Part shown: positions 12,777 to 48,254 of the stretch, piece after piece | Layout: every line of letters starts with the position of its first letter | Position numbering within the stretch: the first letter of the stretch is position 1 | NCBI RefSeq assembly: GCF_000308215.1 | Contig: NZ_CAJE01000012.1 | Coordinates: forward strand, 62,001-126,000 | Direction: 5' to 3' | DNA length: 64,000 nucleotides | Source of the DNA: Methanomassiliicoccus luminyensis B10 | Lineage (GTDB): Archaea > Thermoplasmatota > Thermoplasmata > Methanomassiliicoccales > Methanomassiliicoccaceae | The notes under the pieces: generated by a model | What the model was told of the DNA's origin: nothing | Seen by the model: the letters and a program-made list of their open reading frames with translations, nothing else | The model's database searches: none | Program-made: the position numbers and the translations under genes

Positions 12777-12825
12777 GGCCCGACCGACAAACGATTATGA
12801 ACGCGTGGTTGCAAATATCATCGAC

Positions 12826-13971
12826 ATGCGAGCCTCGCTGCGCCTGGGCAGGCTGTATGGCATCCCCATAATGGTCCATGTCACCTTCCTGCTGATCCTC
12901 CCGCTGTTCGGACTTTCCTTCGCCTTCGCCGACTTCAACTATTTCGGCTTCCAACTGGGGTTCGGGGCGCTCCCCATTGGCGACCTGGAGAAGCTGGCCC
13001 TCGGCCTCTTCGCCGCGGCGCTGTTCTTCATCGCGGTGCTGCTGCACGAGCTTGCCCACTCCATCGTGGCGTTGCGCAACGGCTACGTGATCTCCGGCAT
13101 CACCCTGTTCTTCTTCGGCGGGGTGTCGGAGATAGAGAAGACCCCGCCCAATGCCCCGGGCGAGGCGTTCATGGCCTTCGTCGGCCCGGCCACCAGCTTC
13201 GCCATCGGCCTGGTGCTGCTGCCGTTCTGGTACGTCGCCAACAACTTCGTGGACGGCCTGGGCGGCGAGATACTCACCGTCATGCTGGGCCTGATGAGCT
13301 TCTACAACCTTCTGCTGGGCGCGTTCAACATAATACCGGCGTTCCCCATGGACGGCGGCCGGGTGCTCCGGTCGGTCCTGGCCAAGAGGGTCGGGTTCAT
13401 GCGCGCCACCAGGATCGCGGTGAACGTGGGCAAGGTCATCGCCGTGGTCATGGCCCTAGTGGGGTTCCTGTTCCTCAACCTCTGGCTCGTCATCATCGCC
13501 TTCTTCATCTACATGGGGGCGGGCGAGGAGGGTCGGGGGACCGAGATCTCTCACGCCATGGAAGGGGTGAGCGTCCGGGAAATCATGACCTCTGAGGTCT
13601 CCACCGTCATGCCAAACATGAACGTGGCCGCGTTCATGGAGAAGATGATGGCGGAGCGCCATCTCGGCTACCCCGTCATGGACGGCGGCCGCCTGGTGGG
13701 CATGGTCACCCTGCAGGACGCTCAGAAGGTGCCCCTTTCCGAGCAGCCCACGGTGTCAGTCGGCCAGATCATGAGCCCGCAGGTGATCACGGTATCGTCC
13801 GCCACTCCGGCCATGGATGCCATCCAGCTGATATCTTCCAAGAAGATCGGTCGCCTGGTGGTGGTCGATGACGACCGCGTGGTAGGCATCATCTCCCGCT
13901 CCGACCTGCTGAGGGCGATGGAGATCAGGGCCGCCGAGAAGGCGGGGGTGGAGGTCCGCACCAGGAGCTAA
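12826..13971 (+). CDS. Site-2-protease family (M50) membrane metalloprotease with two CBS domains
   Basis: A 381-aa intramembrane protease. The zinc site is HELAH at residues 74-78, with the third ligand Asp in FPMDGGR near residues 173-179. About five or six membrane helices fill residues 15-240. A tandem pair of CBS domains follows (about 250-370: VREIMTSEVSTV and VGQIMSPQVITV begin the two repeats), which in relatives bind adenine nucleotides and tune activity. The start is taken as ATG 12826; an in-frame GTG at 12805 would add seven residues. The substrate is unknown. Confidence 0.92.
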   Translation: MRASLRLGRLYGIPIMVHVTFLLILPLFGLSFAFADFNYFGFQLGFGALPIGDLEKLALGLFAAALFFIAVLLHELAHSIVALRNGYVISGITLFFFGGVSEIEKTPPNAPGEAFMAFVGPATSFAIGLVLLPFWYVANNFVDGLGGEILTVMLGLMSFYNLLLGAFNIIPAFPMDGGRVLRSVLAKRVGFMRATRIAVNVGKVIAVVMALVGFLFLNLWLVIIAFFIYMGAGEEGRGTEISHAMEGVSVREIMTSEVSTVMPNMNVAAFMEKMMAERHLGYPVMDGGRLVGMVTLQDAQKVPLSEQPTVSVGQIMSPQVITVSSATPAMDAIQLISSKKIGRLVVVDDDRVVGIISRSDLLRAMEIRAAEKAGVEVRTRS

Positions 13972-13975
13972 CATC

Positions 13976-14063
13976 CAGCCGCTCACGAACGAGTTCGTGA
14001 GCTTGCAACTGAGCTCGGCCTCATCGATCGCCGCGTTCGGCTCGCTGACACGGAGCCTGCTGC
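13976..14063 (+). repeat. Dispersed hairpin-bearing repeat, copy A
   Basis: This segment, directly after the protease stop codon, is similar to 43727-43838. The first 47 bp align without gaps. Both copies keep an exact GGCTTGCAACTGAGCTCGG-like core of about 22 bp and a second block of about 45 bp ending GGAGCCTG. The copy opens with an almost perfect hairpin at 13981-14002 (10-bp arms). The rest of the 315-bp gap up to 14286 shows no gene; a TATA-like element at about 14253-14260 serves the next gene. Confidence 0.6.
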
Positions 14064-14286
14064 TCACGGAGATAATGGGAATGGCGATGTTCGGGACCAG
14101 AGTATCGGAACTTCAGCCGTTTTGCTCTCAGGGAGAGTGTCTCCCCCCTCCTGCGAGACATCCGATGGTCCCGCGTGTCCAGTGCAATGCTGTTCTGCAA
14201 ATATGTTGATTGTATTCAATCCACGATTTAGAAGGCGGTTTTCCGACGATGCTTTTTATAAGTGGCCGCCTGGATACTCCTCTCCA

Positions 14287-15348
14287 ATGAGGTTCGGAGT
14301 GGTCATCCACGGCGCCGAGGTCATCGACTCCGGAACGGCGGCCCGGGCGTTGGACGCTCTGGGGGAGAGGGGCGAGGTCATCGCCACCCTGGGGGGCGCG
14401 ATGGGCGCCACCGCCGTCCTCGACGCTGGCCTGGAGGACCGCGTGGCCATCGTGCCGGGACAGCTCGTGTCCGACGCCCTTCTGGACCTGGCCTCGGGAT
14501 GCGACGCCCTTTTGCTGCTGAACCATGCGAAGAGCCGCGCCTCCGGCCTGGCCCTCGGCGGCATGGTGGCGCGCAAGGTCTCCAGCAGGATAAGGGTACC
14601 CATGGTGCACCTGGACGACGGCTTCTTCGTGGTGTGGTCCGGCCGGCCCCCCGAGGGCCTGATGAAGGTGGTGCGCGAGCTTGCCCCCTCGGAGGCGAGC
14701 GCTCCCGCTCTCGGGACGGCGGATGAGGGAACAAGGCCCGTTTACGGCGTCATTCCGGGCGAGAACGTGTGGATCAACGGGACGGTGGTGGGAAGGGCCA
14801 CATCCTCGAAAGTGGTGATATCCTCCCGCGGCGGCCTGCTGTCCTTCGAGGGCTTGGAGATCAAGCAGCACGGCCTGGGCAAGCTCGGTGAAGTGGACCT
14901 TTTCCGGGCCATCATACGCTCCGGCTCGGTGCGCAGGACCTCATCGAGGCCCCTGACGGCGCCGCGCGGCACCGGCACTAAAGTCATCCTGGTGGACCAT
15001 CGCGCGGAAAGCTCGGCGTTCCGCTGGGAGGGCGTCAGGGCCGCGGTGTCGGTGGGCGACGACACCACCCGCATCACCACCGCCCTGCTGGCCCGGAGGG
15101 GCATCCCCGTCATCGGCATCACCGACGGCGACGAGGACGGGATATGCTCCGACCGAACCGCGGCGGAGGGCTCGGCGGCGCTGAGGCTCCGGCCGGGCAA
15201 CGACGATCAGCTGGGAGCGCTGGTGCGCCGGGAGGTCTTCCGCGGCCGGGACAGCGTGGAATACGAGGGCACCCTGGACGACCTGATCGGCTCCATAAAA
15301 GAACTGGCAGGGGACAAGCTATTGAGCGTCGAGAGGAAAGAGGTTTGA
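14287..15348 (+). CDS. DUF2117 family protein, archaeal, function unknown
   Basis: A 353-aa protein whose N-terminus (GVVIHGAEVIDSGTAARAL, then ATLGGAMGATAVLDAGLED) is the recognisable start of the DUF2117 family of methanogens and relatives. A central DALLLLNHAKSRASGL and a C-terminal VGDDTTRITTALLARRGIPVIGITDGDEDGI follow. No catalytic motif is known to me. The frame opens at 14122, but the ATG at 14287 is preferred: a TATA box (TTTTTATAAG, about 14252-14261) lies about 30 bp before it, so the transcript is probably leaderless. Confidence 0.8.
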   Translation: MRFGVVIHGAEVIDSGTAARALDALGERGEVIATLGGAMGATAVLDAGLEDRVAIVPGQLVSDALLDLASGCDALLLLNHAKSRASGLALGGMVARKVSSRIRVPMVHLDDGFFVVWSGRPPEGLMKVVRELAPSEASAPALGTADEGTRPVYGVIPGENVWINGTVVGRATSSKVVISSRGGLLSFEGLEIKQHGLGKLGEVDLFRAIIRSGSVRRTSSRPLTAPRGTGTKVILVDHRAESSAFRWEGVRAAVSVGDDTTRITTALLARRGIPVIGITDGDEDGICSDRTAAEGSAALRLRPGNDDQLGALVRREVFRGRDSVEYEGTLDDLIGSIKELAGDKLLSVERKEV

Positions 15349-43213: not shown

Positions 43214-43300
43214 TCCCGATCTCGCTGTCGTCGCGACCGATATTAGAATACAGTAGTGATAAATATCCAACACTTTATACCCAGGAGGGAGGGATGCAAT

Positions 43301-43681
43301 TTGCCTTTGCTCAGGAAGCCTTTTGCCCGGAACAGGGAGGACGTTCAGACCGTTGAGACAGACCAGTACATCGACCTCGGCGCCATGCACTTCGATGACG
43401 ACAGCATCGCCGGGACCAGGGGGGCTGTCAAGCTGGCCGAGATCTACCGGTACGAGGACATCTCCGAGATCACTCAGCCCGTGTACGACGGAAGCACCGT
43501 GATCATCGACTACGCCGCCGTCGCCAATGACACCGACACCCTGAGGCGCGTCACCAGCGAACTCAAGGCGGTGGCCAGGGACTGCAACGGTGACGTGGCC
43601 GCTATCGGGCATGATCTGATCGTCGTCACCCCTCGGGGCCTCAAGATAGATCGGAACAAGATCAAGGGCGGTTTCCACTAA
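43301..43681 (+). CDS. sepF: SepF cell-division protein
   Basis: A 126-aa protein. Residues about 45-125 form the SepF core: VKLAEIYRYEDISEITQPVYDGSTVIIDYAAVANDTDTLRRVTSELK, then GDVAAIGHDLIVVTPRGLKID. In archaea SepF anchors FtsZ at the membrane through an N-terminal amphipathic segment; here LPLLRKPFAR at the start fits. TTG 43301 is chosen because AGGAGGGAGG (43281-43291) sits about 10 bp before it; the frame opens at a GTG at 43256. ftsZ is not in the window. Confidence 0.85.
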   Translation: MPLLRKPFARNREDVQTVETDQYIDLGAMHFDDDSIAGTRGAVKLAEIYRYEDISEITQPVYDGSTVIIDYAAVANDTDTLRRVTSELKAVARDCNGDVAAIGHDLIVVTPRGLKIDRNKIKGGFH

Positions 43682-43726
43682 CCGTGCCAAACCCCTTTCT
43701 TTAGGTTTTCTTGCGCTAACAGGGGT

Positions 43727-43870
43727 CAGCCGCCCACTATTGAACTCATGGGCTTGCAACTGAGCTCGGCCTCGATTGTCCAATGACCTTCGGCCTCGTC
43801 GATCACTGCGTTCGGCTCGCTGACGCGGAGCCTGCCGCCTTCCCGCGTGAAGAAGGCGGCGATGTTCATC
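43727..43870 (+). repeat. Dispersed hairpin-bearing repeat, copy B, in a 458-bp gene-free gap
   Basis: The segment matches copy A at 13976-14063, with an extra insertion of about 26 bp after position 43773 that partly repeats TCGGCCTC. It begins with a weaker version of the hairpin (43732-43753) and is followed by a strong hairpin GCCGCCTTC/GAAGGCGGC at 43834-43860. The rest of the gap 43682-44139 shows a T-rich stretch after sepF (43690-43711), sequence without a supported gene, and the TATA-like element of the next gene at about 44115-44124. Confidence 0.6.
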
Positions 43871-44139
43871 GAGGCGTTCGAGCCAGCGTCAGAGCGAGCC
43901 CGCACTAAACGCGGCTGAATGCTGTCCCGTTCTATCGATCCAAGACACGCCGATGCGCCTCGCTGACACGCTGACCGTCTCGACGATCTCGGCGGCGCGT
44001 TCCAAAATGTGTCGTGATGGTGCGGAACATCTGAATAGGGGTTGGATCTGGCGATTTGATACGTTTGGCTGCATGTAGTTACTTCCCTTGAGAAGGTGGG
44101 GCTTTCTGGCGATAATTAATATAATCTGCTGGCCATTTT

Positions 44140-45459
44140 GTGCCTGTGCCCGGCTTCAAGGTCATACACGACAGCGTCCACGGCAGCGTCAAGGTCGATG
44201 GGCTGTTCCTTGATCTTCTGGAGCGTCCGGAGATGCAGCGGTTGCACGGCGTGCACCAGCTCGGCCTTGCCCATCTGGTCTTCCCGGGAGCGAACCACAC
44301 CCGCCTGGAGCATTCCTTGGGCACCTACCACCTCGCCAGGACCATGAGCGGGGCCCTGGAGCTGGACGACCAAGACCGGTCAACGGTGCTGGCCGCGGCG
44401 CTCCTGCACGACCTCGGCCACTCGCCTTATTCTCATACCCTCGAAGAGGTCATCCACAACCGTACCGGAAAGGACCATACTGGCATCACCCGGGACATCA
44501 TCATGGGCTCCCTTCCGATAATGAGCGAGGCCTCCGCCGAGGTGCTCGGCCGCTTCAACCCCATCGCCGAGGTGCTGGAAGGGGAAGGCATCTCCCCACA
44601 GGACGTCACCGGTCTCATCTCCGCATCTCACCTCGCCAAGGACTCAAGGCAGCGCACCCTCGACGTGGACGCGGGGCAGGCTCACTTCGGCCAGAAGAAC
44701 TACCTAAAGCAGATCATCTCCGGACCGCTGGACGTCGACCAGATGGACTATCTCCAGAGGGACGCCTATTACACCGGGGTGGCGCACGGCACCATCGACA
44801 TCGACCGCCTCATGCAGACCGTGGCGGTGTTCCATGGGGACCTCGTGATCAGCAAAGGCGGGATGGTGGCGGTGGAAGGCCTCATGGTAGCCCGCTCCCT
44901 GATGTACACCTCGGTGTACTTCCACAAGACCGCGCGCATAGCGGAGATGATGCTGTGCAAGGCCGTGGAGATGGCACCCCCGTCGGTGCTGGACGACATC
45001 CACATGGCTACTGACTGCGAGCTCGACTCCAAGCTCACCGAGGCGGGGGGCGACGCCGCGCGCCTGATGACCCTGCTGCGGTTCCGCAAGCTGTACAAGA
45101 AGGCGGTGATGCTCCCGGTGTCCGGTCTCGACGAGCATCAGATCGAGCATCTCATCGAGCTGTCCGATTACAATAGGCGCAAGGCCGCCGAGAGGGAGAT
45201 CGCCGACCGCGCCGGGCTCAAGGAGTCGGAGGTCCTGGTGGACATCCCGGACCGCGCCCTGCTCCTCGGCGAGCCGCGCATCGGAAAGACCGACGTGGCC
45301 ATCCTCGACGGCGACAGGGTCAGGCCGCTGTCCCGTTACAGCCCCCTGGCCAAGGCCATCCAGTCCCGCGGCGTGCACGACTGGGCGGTCATGGTCTCCA
45401 CCCCCGCCAAGAACCGCGAGGAAGTGGAGAAGGCCACCCTCAAGACGCTGTTCGCCTAG
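44140..45459 (+). CDS. HD-domain phosphohydrolase (dNTPase-like)
   Basis: A 439-aa protein from a GTG start. The N-terminal pattern KVIHDSVHGSVKVDGLFLDLLERPEMQRLHGVHQLGLAHLVFPGANHTRLEHSLGTYHLA and LLHDLGHSPYSHTLEE give the four HD metal ligands (His in RLEH, HD in LLHD). Later DQMDYLQRDAYYTGV is conserved in this HD family of SAMHD1/dGTPase-like proteins. It probably hydrolyses a nucleotide; the substrate is unknown. A TATA-like element lies about 20 bp before the GTG. It is the one clear TAG-ended gene noticed, and its stop overlaps the convergent rtcB end by 4 bp. Confidence 0.88.
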   Translation: MPVPGFKVIHDSVHGSVKVDGLFLDLLERPEMQRLHGVHQLGLAHLVFPGANHTRLEHSLGTYHLARTMSGALELDDQDRSTVLAAALLHDLGHSPYSHTLEEVIHNRTGKDHTGITRDIIMGSLPIMSEASAEVLGRFNPIAEVLEGEGISPQDVTGLISASHLAKDSRQRTLDVDAGQAHFGQKNYLKQIISGPLDVDQMDYLQRDAYYTGVAHGTIDIDRLMQTVAVFHGDLVISKGGMVAVEGLMVARSLMYTSVYFHKTARIAEMMLCKAVEMAPPSVLDDIHMATDCELDSKLTEAGGDAARLMTLLRFRKLYKKAVMLPVSGLDEHQIEHLIELSDYNRRKAAEREIADRAGLKESEVLVDIPDRALLLGEPRIGKTDVAILDGDRVRPLSRYSPLAKAIQSRGVHDWAVMVSTPAKNREEVEKATLKTLFA

Positions 45460-48254
45460 CCCTTCATGACGCCCAGCGGAGTGAGGCGGGCCACCCTCCG
45501 GGAGAGCCCCGCGCCGGCCACCACGTCGATGACCTGCTCTATGTTCTTGTACGCCTCCGGGGCCTCTTCGAGGATGCCGTCCTTGGTGGCCGACTTCAGG
45601 AATATGCCGCGGTGCTCCATGTCCTGCTTGATCCCCTGGACGGTGAACTTCCTGAGGGCCTCGGTCCTCGACATCATGCGCCCGGCGCCGTGGCAGGTGG
45701 AGCCGAACGACTCGGCCATGCCCCGCTCCGTGCCGACCAGGACGTAGCTGCCGGAGCCCATGTCCCCGGGGATGAGGACGGGCTGCCCCACTGAGCTGTA
45801 CTGCCTCGGTATCTCGGGGTGCTCGCGGGGGAACGCTCTCGTAGCACCTTTGCGGTGAACATACACCTCCCGGCGCCTCCCGTCCACCTGGTGCTCCTCC
45901 ACCTTGGCGATGTTGTGGGCCACGTCGTACACCTGGTGTAGCCCCATGCTCTCGGCGTCGCGCTTGAAGTGCTCCTCGAACGACTCTCTGATCCAGTGGA
46001 GGATCATCTGCCGGTTGGCCCAGGCATAGTTGGCGCCGCAGGCCATGGCCTTGAAGTAATCCTCACCCTCCTTGGAGTGCACGGGGGCGCAGGCCAGCTG
46101 GCGGTCGGGCAGGTTCATGTCCCGCTGCCGCATGGCCTTCTCCATCACCTGAAGGTAGTCGGTGGCGATCTGGTGCCCGCAGCCGCGGGAGCCGCAGTGG
46201 ACCATCACGGTCACCTGCCCCTCCCTCAGCCCGAAGGCCCTGGCCGCTTCCTCATCGAAGATCTCGTCCACCACGTCCACCTCCAGGAAGTGGTTGCCCG
46301 AGCCAAGGGAGCCGACCTGCGGAACGCCTCTCTGCTTGGCCTTGCCGCTCACCTTGGTCGGGTCGGCGTTCTTCATCCGGCCGCCCTCCTCGGTGACAGT
46401 GAGGTCCTCATCCCACCCGTACCCGCTGCGCACGGCCCACTCCGCGCCCTCCACCAGTATGTTGTCTATCTGACCCTCCACCGCTCCCACGATGCCCTTG
46501 GAGCCCACTCCGGCGGGCACGTTCTTGAACAGCGTGGAGATCAGGTCCTTGATGCCGGGCTGGACGTCCTTGGCCTCCAGCTCGGTGCGGACCAGGCGCA
46601 CCCCGCAGTTGGACACGATCATCCCGTCGGCGACGAAGTTGTGGGTCTCCGGTACGGTGAAATCATAGACGAAGCCCTTGTAAGGCACCTCCTTCACGGC
46701 CGTGACCCGGTCGTACAGGAACCCGGTGGCCTTCAGCATGTCAAGCTCCTGGTCTAGGAACTCGCTGAACGAGGTGAAGTCGACGGACGGCCTCTGCCCT
46801 TCCCCGTTGTACTGTTTCTCCACGAAGCGCGGGGTGATGCCGTAGCCGACCAGGAGGGTCTGCACCTCCTTGAGCTTCAGTCCCTTCTTCTTCAGCTTCC
46901 TGGCCCTCTCCGCCGCCTTGACCCTGCTGTCGTTCAGCTCCTTCTTGAGCAGCATGTACTTTACGGCGGCCTCGGCCATCTTGCTCTTCATCTCGGAGTA
47001 CTCGAACCCGATGATGCGGTACAGCCTGATCAGGTTGTCCTCGTTGGCGCAGATGCTCATGGTGAGGCGCGAGATGCTCCCGTTCCTGTGGCGGAGGTCC
47101 TTCCTTTCACATATCTGGGTCTTCTCCACCCCCAGGTCCTCCAGGAGCATCATCACGTCGATGTAGAACATCCTGGCATCGTCCAGTCGCGCGTCGTCCA
47201 GCTTCTGCACCAGCATGGGGGGGTCAAAGGTGGTCTTGGTGTCGGCCTTGGGCATGGTCAGCTCGGCGCCGAACAGCCCGGCCAGGAACGCCCTCTTGAT
47301 CGCCGGGGCCGCCTTGGTGACCCACTCCGGGACCCGCTGGTCGGAGATGGTCTTGCTTCCCACCGGCATGCCCCTCTCCACGAGCAGATCGGAGAACTCC
47401 CGCGAACTCACCCGGATCTCCGGTCCGGCGACGGTCGAGTCATATCCCAGATCGGCGAGGTCCCTCTTCATCTTCTCCAGGTCGGTCCTCTGGCCGCAGA
47501 CGCTGGCGATGATGCCCCCCTCTTTCAGGTCCAGCGAGCCGGCCCCCAGCATGTAGCCGAAGAGCTTGGCCAGGACGACCTCCCTCCGGTCCACGTTCTG
47601 GTCCACTTCGACGCCCTGGAAATAGGTCACCGCCACCTGGTCCCCAGGCGCGATGAGCGCCGCATTCTTCATGCCGATGCTGGTGAGCACCGGGTGGTCC
47701 TCGGAGGCCCGGAGCTCGATGCCGGTCCTGGTGGTGATCAGGAACACCCTCTTGTCGCTCTCCTTCCTTATGAAAGCGGCGGGCTTCCTGGCGACCAGCC
47801 CCCTCTCCAGCGTCATCACGGAGGTCGTTCCGCCCATCATTCCCACGGTGAACCCGTCGTTCGTCTGTATGGTGGTCCCGAACTCCTCCTCGAAGTCCTC
47901 TATCCTCATCCACCCGCCCAGGTCGGTGCTGATCCTGGAGCCCTCGCAAAGGCAGTTGATGTCGAACCCGATGCCTCCGGGGGAGATCACCCCCTCCTCG
48001 GCATCAAGGGCGGCCACGCCCCCGATGGGGAACCCATACCCCCAGTGGATGTCCGGCATGGCCAAGGAGTTGCCCACGATCCCGGGGAGGAAGGCGACGT
48101 TGGCCGCCTGCTCGGGCGCATTGTCCTCCTTCAGCTTAGGTACCATGCCCTCGTCGGCGAACACGATGGCATCGGTGCGCATACCGCTCTTATATGTCCG
48201 CGGGATCTTCCAGCGAAAGTCGTCGACCTTCTCGAGGGGTCCATTATATGTCAT
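45456..48254 (-). CDS. rtcB: tRNA-splicing ligase RtcB precursor with intein
   Basis: A 932-aa precursor: 483 residues of RtcB interrupted by a 449-residue intein (separate entry). RtcB joins 2',3'-cyclic phosphate and 5'-OH RNA ends using GTP and Mn2+, for tRNA exon joining and RNA repair. The mature sequence has [14 protein letters not shown], the metal site [45 protein letters not shown], the histidine of the guanylate site in [10 protein letters not shown] and the end MKG. A TATA-like element on the minus strand near 48288-48296 gives a short leader. Length after splicing is normal. Confidence 0.96.
   Translation of the reverse strand: [932 protein letters not shown]
46608..47954 (-). 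other. Intein in RtcB with degenerate LAGLIDADG endonuclease
   Basis: The intein covers residues 101-549 of the precursor. It begins with Cys ([11 protein letters not shown], the usual N-terminal block A) and ends [12 protein letters not shown] before the extein Cys, so His, Asn and the +1 Cys needed for splicing are present. It sits at the metal-binding Cys of RtcB, exactly inside [10 protein letters not shown]. The homing endonuclease motifs are recognisable but altered: LFGYMLGAG (Ala where the catalytic Asp is expected) and LAGLFGAEL (Glu instead of Asp). Splicing looks functional; DNA cutting is doubtful. Confidence 0.92.

Follow-up and report, generated by a model that had tools for sequence, protein, structure and literature searches.

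IS200/IS605 elements move as single strands via a Y1 transposase, and a 2023 paper in Nature on TnpB and selfish spread is said to treat PATEs. Protein-less derivatives of IS605 elements are already known as PATEs, archaea included (PMC3119063, PMC7290912). In Haloquadratum walsbyi, PATEs encode no protein, carry near-terminal palindromes and lie beside a conserved target oligonucleotide, and some of them arose from IS605-type elements through deletion of the core (PMC3119063). A PATE-like element of Halanaerobium hydrogeniformans, about 271 nt long, consists of a left end, the last 58 nt of tnpB and a whole right end (PMC7290912). In ISDra2, TnpB together with an RNA from the right end of the element cuts element-free sites that carry a TAM (PMC8612924).

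A comparable family is present in the archaeon Methanomassiliicoccus luminyensis B10, where it was recognised from two repeats in a stretch of 64,000 nucleotides (the window; contig NZ_CAJE01000012.1). A preliminary description of the window, based on its letters and open reading frames, had aligned these repeats, here called copies A and B, with a first block of equal length. This alignment holds: the block of 47 bp (13976-14022 and 43727-43773) has 39/47 identical positions and no gaps, and a second block of 49 bp (14015-14063 and 43790-43838) is 89.8% identical. The two blocks score 50 and 67 bits, respectively; the best score over 30 shuffled windows was 32.8. The description had also singled out a hairpin in which one pair differs between the copies while pairing is kept. 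Copy A indeed has T-A as pair 3 (GCTCAC/GTGAGC), where copy B has C-G (GCCCAC/ATGGGC), and across 17 copies this pair is C-G in nine, T-A in six, T-G in one and broken in one. The repeats as first delimited are only the right ends of larger elements, which span 13974-14257 (A) and 43725-44120 (B) and read on the minus strand. What copy B has in addition between these blocks is one omega-RNA stem-loop, the third, which is missing in copy A and in five other copies; the gap in A is 26 bp, and in B that segment sits between two GAGGCCGA repeats.

The pair is not an isolated one, as the genome (2.62 Mb, 26 contigs) contains 19 copies. Searching the genome with a covariance model derived from the repeats gave 20 matches at E<=0.01, of which 19 are the repeat family and one belongs to a separate tnpB on contig C9. 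Followed on the opposite strand, copies of the repeat continue into the zinc-ribbon end of TnpB, and two full-length elements, both outside the window, lie on contigs C12 (1226 bp) and C14 (1241 bp). Their tnpB genes are open from an MFRT start for 378 and 381 codons, respectively, and end with a TGA stop codon inside the terminal GCTGAC; the proteins are 79% identical to each other, carry PF07282 and PF01385, and have the zinc-ribbon cysteines. The columns of the RuvC residues D170/E249/D327 are invariant in all nine TnpBs of a protein alignment from which one locus with a stop codon (L132) was left out. The possibility that these proteins are TldR, that is, nuclease-dead TnpB, was rejected because the RuvC acidic residues are retained. 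The remaining 17 of the 19 copies have no working tnpB. Among them, A and B share the left end of the full elements, preceded by an NTTAT target. Left ends were located in 14 of the 19 copies with a left-end profile and reading by eye, and five copies are without a clear left end. In 11 of these 14 the left end is bordered on its outer side by TTAT, and the other three have another target. A near-terminal palindrome is visible by eye in several left ends (e.g. C15_45k), and its counterpart at the right end, helix 5 of the structure described below, is paired in 94.9% of cells in 17 sequences and 93.4% in 46. The middle of A differs from that of B and is partly common to C22_31k, C21_33k, C13_107k and C3_25k; the part common to these five, around GCTGAAGTTCCGA, is not recognisably tnpB. 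The repeat has no Rfam match at the gathering score; the sole match of the copy B stretch at E<=1, TCV_Pr, is sub-threshold and was taken as chance.

The right ends of the repeat family are predicted omega-RNA scaffolds, as shown by covariation, and the hairpin first noticed is the last stem of the TnpB omega-RNA scaffold. In an alignment of 17 sequences, which includes A and B themselves (as does the model built from it) and from which seven of 24 right ends were dropped as truncated or divergent (C13_207k, C13_107k, C7_10k, C21_33k, C21_49k and two of the relative G003), 97.3% of the cells of a five-helix structure are paired, and both partners have changed in 12 of its 30 pairs. None of 500 shuffles reached this level of covariation, and when the structure was slid along the alignment pairing fell to 22-42%. 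A broader alignment of 46 archaeal sequences joined repeat copies to tnpB loci of Methanothrix, Bathyarchaeota, Asgard and other archaea (without C21_33k, C21_49k, L177 and L180); there the structure is paired in 95.4% of cells, and 20 of 30 pairs show changes on both sides (177 cells), with helices 1, 3, 4 and 5 leaning towards the model because this alignment was fitted to it. A pseudoknot between the loop of stem 1 and the last six bases lies outside the model and is paired in 95.3% of cells of the 46 rows, its fifth pair being A-U in 24 and G-C in 19. Covariation is strong on both alignments; part of this evidence comes from full elements, in which the region is also protein-coding.

The position of the scaffold is consistent with this assignment. 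In both full elements of the genome the model matches the 3' end of tnpB plus the right end, on the tnpB strand. The same holds for the 3' end of tnpB in 28/28 archaeal loci given to the search, a figure valid for this choice of 26 of 78 tnpB loci plus two of the genome G130; the matches of L177 and L180 were at a cut-off or weaker score. The 78 loci came from a contig search with a 9-sequence TnpB alignment; a contig scan with one TnpB as query had returned no matches. Like the ISDra2 RNA, the predicted RNA would derive from the tnpB 3' end and the right end, with the guide position in the 3' flank (PMC8612924), and like the ISDra2 omega-RNA it has a stem 1 enclosing a strand that pairs with the bases just ahead of the guide, as well as stems 2-4 (PMC10097598). 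In contrast, ISDra2 has a tnpA and the TAM TTGAT, whereas here there is no tnpA, the target is NTTAT and the sequences differ (PMC8612924, PMC10097598).

Both copies in the window lie directly after a gene, as the preliminary description had stated: A about 4 nt past a gene for a peptidase M50 with CBS domains (12805-13971, plus strand; PF02163, PF00571), and B about 43 nt past a gene for a SepF-like protein (43256-43681, plus strand; PF04472 on 43295-43678). Element A (284 bp, minus strand) has its right end at 13974/13976 and its left end at 14257, both of the kind common to the full TnpB elements. Its predicted scaffold, without the third stem-loop, spans 13974-14061 on the minus strand (model R1, 85 bits, E 3.2e-21, with copy A among the 17 sequences used to build the model). 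Within it, on the same strand, are the covarying terminal hairpin at 13981-14002, the last stem before the guide, and stem 1 at 14039-14057, whose loop, GTCAGC, pairs in most copies with the right-end GCTGAC as the pseudoknot. In A itself one of these pairs fails and one turns G-U, since its end reads GCTGGA. The presumed 16-nt guide (13958-13973, minus strand) is placed by position only, through the analogy with ISDra2 (PMC8612924), and would consist of flanking host sequence, antisense to where the M50 gene ends. The target, or presumed TAM, CTTAT adjoins the left end at 14258-14262 on the minus strand; read on the opposite strand, it belongs to a likely TATA box some 30 nt ahead of the gene for a DUF2117 protein (14290-15348, plus strand; PF09890).

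Element B (396 bp, minus strand) has the same two ends and a complete predicted scaffold at 43725-43836, minus strand (R1, 122 bits, E 3.5e-31, B likewise being among the 17 training sequences), including the third stem-loop at 43778-43788 (minus strand). Judged by reading frame, the scaffold overlaps what is left of the tnpB 3' end. Pieces of the beginning and the last part of tnpB, without the lost core, occupy 43849-44030 on the minus strand, with the MFRT start at 44030 and NIAAF near 43866. The presumed 16-nt guide (43709-43724, minus strand) is again set by position only, and the target, or presumed TAM, ATTAT (44121-44125, minus strand) adjoins the left end, with an AT-rich box ahead of an HD-domain gene (44140-45459, plus strand; PF01966, PF19276). 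Within the window, no second match to TAM plus guide of A or B was found with up to three mismatches. An RtcB ligase gene split by an intein-like segment lies at 45459-48254 on the minus strand (PF01139 and PF14890).

Comparison with same-family relatives indicates that both slots can be empty. In 10/13 relatives the DUF2117 gene comes straight after the M50-CBS gene, with no element, and in 12/13 the HD-domain gene comes straight after the SepF-like gene, the thirteenth locus being unreadable (a run of N). A model search of 26 relative loci found the element at the slot in none, and only a weak match elsewhere in one locus (L143). Joining the flanks of A leaves a gap of 36 nt, and in nine relatives measured from the gene start the gap is 21-74 nt (31-35 nt in seven of them), figures that compare lengths, since the divergence of the relatives precludes placing the junctions to the base; L146, which matched only from residue 47, was left out.

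Overall, the repeats are best read, with a probability of about 90%, as the right ends of PATE-type miniature, protein-less derivatives of an IS1341-type element of the IS200/IS605 group. The full form of the parent has tnpB as its only gene, and complete copies keep the left end, inserted 3' of NTTAT, together with the scaffold right end with GCTGAC at the host junction. In the miniature copies an internal deletion removed most of tnpB, and a Y1 transposase acting in trans would have spread them. No Y1 transposase (PF01797) was found in the M. luminyensis genome at E<=1, and PF01797 matches occur in 1/15 genomes of the family at E<=0.01; for these reasons the miniature elements are presumably immobile now, and further movement is unlikely. 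They are most likely ageing relics. Some copies may still be transcribed into omega-RNA with the host DNA on the 3' side of the right end as guide, and the intact TnpBs could still use scaffolds from any copy. The absence of a Y1 transposase, the GCTGGA end of A, the three targets other than TTAT and the five copies without a clear left end count against this reading. Two of the three identities first suggested for the repeat, a structured RNA and an IS200/IS605-derived end, are both borne out, the former by the strong covariation, whereas a terminator-type element is unsupported. That the copies might be decayed remains of a single protein gene is correct to the extent that, in full elements, the right end and the tnpB 3' end overlap; nevertheless, the right end is more than a gene remnant, because it has paired changes and is accompanied by a left end.

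Other explanations give the copies a present role. If they are live elements, omega-RNAs with their own flanks as guides would serve the two intact TnpBs in trans across the genome, and TnpB would cut element-free alleles so that sites stay occupied (homing or retention in trans), which appears unlikely. In a wider form of this reading, again improbable, as many as 19 scattered omega-RNA genes, mainly in elements without tnpB, would each guard their own site as a homing network; the miniature elements would then persist through the cutting of element-free alleles by TnpB and not through movement. The intact catalytic residues of TnpB agree with homing in trans, as do the scaffolds with paired changes and pseudoknot retained in tnpB-less copies and the fact that only 2/19 scaffold copies have an intact TnpB in cis. 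Even the third stem missing from A resembles the trimming of stem 3b in ISDra2, which is harmless to activity (PMC10097598). However, the closest miniature copies (C15, C5 and C4_117) share 83-88% of their scaffold against 86-96% of their middle, and because the scaffold is no better kept than the rest they give no clear sign of selection on it; over copy pairs in general, the scaffold is more conserved than the middle in some and not in others. The right ends of A and C12_199k are, moreover, damaged.

It is very unlikely that the repeats are host regulatory elements, whether for the upstream genes, as a terminator or 3'-UTR RNA, or for the downstream ones, as a promoter part. A and B do lie between the end of one gene and the TATA-like box of the next, all 14 left ends face a gene that points away, and at 9/14 the start of such a gene is 10-70 nt off, a count that may be low because gene calling missed starts beside A and C12_199k. 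In comparison to all TTAT sites (31/143) this is a clear excess (p 0.0015), but intergenic TTAT sites are similar (18/37; Fisher p 0.36), so that the proximity to gene starts is explained by the target motif, which resembles a TATA box. A promoter preference of the insertions was rejected, as the excess vanishes against those intergenic sites. Against host regulation there are also the relatives that lack the element between the same genes, and the structured RNA, which at A and B runs antisense to the gene upstream. A DDE-transposase MITE of the classical kind, with terminal inverted repeats, would likewise be small, dispersed, non-coding and palindromic, yet in the copies read the left and right ends differ and are not inverted repeats of each other, and both come from the TnpB element; the full-length TnpB parents refute this explanation, whose probability is negligible.

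Further TnpB loci were noted as well. A distinct TnpB lies just upstream of tRNA-Pro(CGG), on the same strand, in 6/6 loci examined from two families: L122 (G004), L125 (G011), L126 (G010), L127 (G009), L132 (G000:C9:1726-2826), which has one in-frame stop, and L123 (G125). In the five loci that were aligned, these proteins are 39-44% identical to the TnpB of the element and keep the RuvC residues. The omega-like scaffold of these loci retains stem 1, and a retained pseudoknot whose sequence has changed can be made out by eye (strands ATCTAC/GTAGAT, ATCTAT/ATAGAT, GCCAGT/ACTGGC and GCCAAC/GTTGGC). This TnpB is a candidate for a long-kept, perhaps domesticated, locus. The relative G003 (79% complete) is another genome in which scaffolds outnumber nucleases, with ten scaffold matches versus only two TnpB C-terminal matches. 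In G130, from another family of the order, two TnpB copies (L121 and L131) are 73-74% identical to the TnpB of the element. Because they are far closer than those of nearer relatives, the protein sequences suggest that they arrived by horizontal transfer.

No description of this repeat family was found in the open-licence literature on the host group or on miniature elements with an RNA-guided TnpB. Similar to the PATEs of H. walsbyi, these are protein-less archaeal elements with a near-terminal palindrome and a fixed target oligonucleotide (PMC3119063). Unlike in that paper, which predates omega-RNA, the right end was tested here as a scaffold by covariation, and in contrast to the description given there, full-length parents with intact TnpB are present in the same genome (PMC3119063). 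The composition of the H. hydrogeniformans element implies the same design as copy A; in the part of that report cited here, however, there are one ends-only copy and many tnpA, whereas 17 of 19 copies are tnpB-less here and no tnpA was found (PMC7290912). The solo tnpB of Sulfolobus islandicus is likewise archaeal and without tnpA, and has a predicted TAM, TTTAT, beside the left end, but belongs to a different host group, and the cited part of PMC10640517 describes no miniature copies. What is added here is the covariation evidence for the scaffold and its setting of 19 scaffolds, two intact TnpBs and no transposase. Covariation in an unannotated repeat, read from raw sequence, can thus point to an RNA-guided nuclease system. 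The omega-RNA consensus, with a pseudoknot that covaries across several archaeal phyla, allows guide RNAs to be sought by model beyond the neighbourhood of tnpB, and the M. luminyensis family offers a clean case for testing whether tnpB-less IS605 derivatives supply guides in trans and so retain themselves without a transposase.
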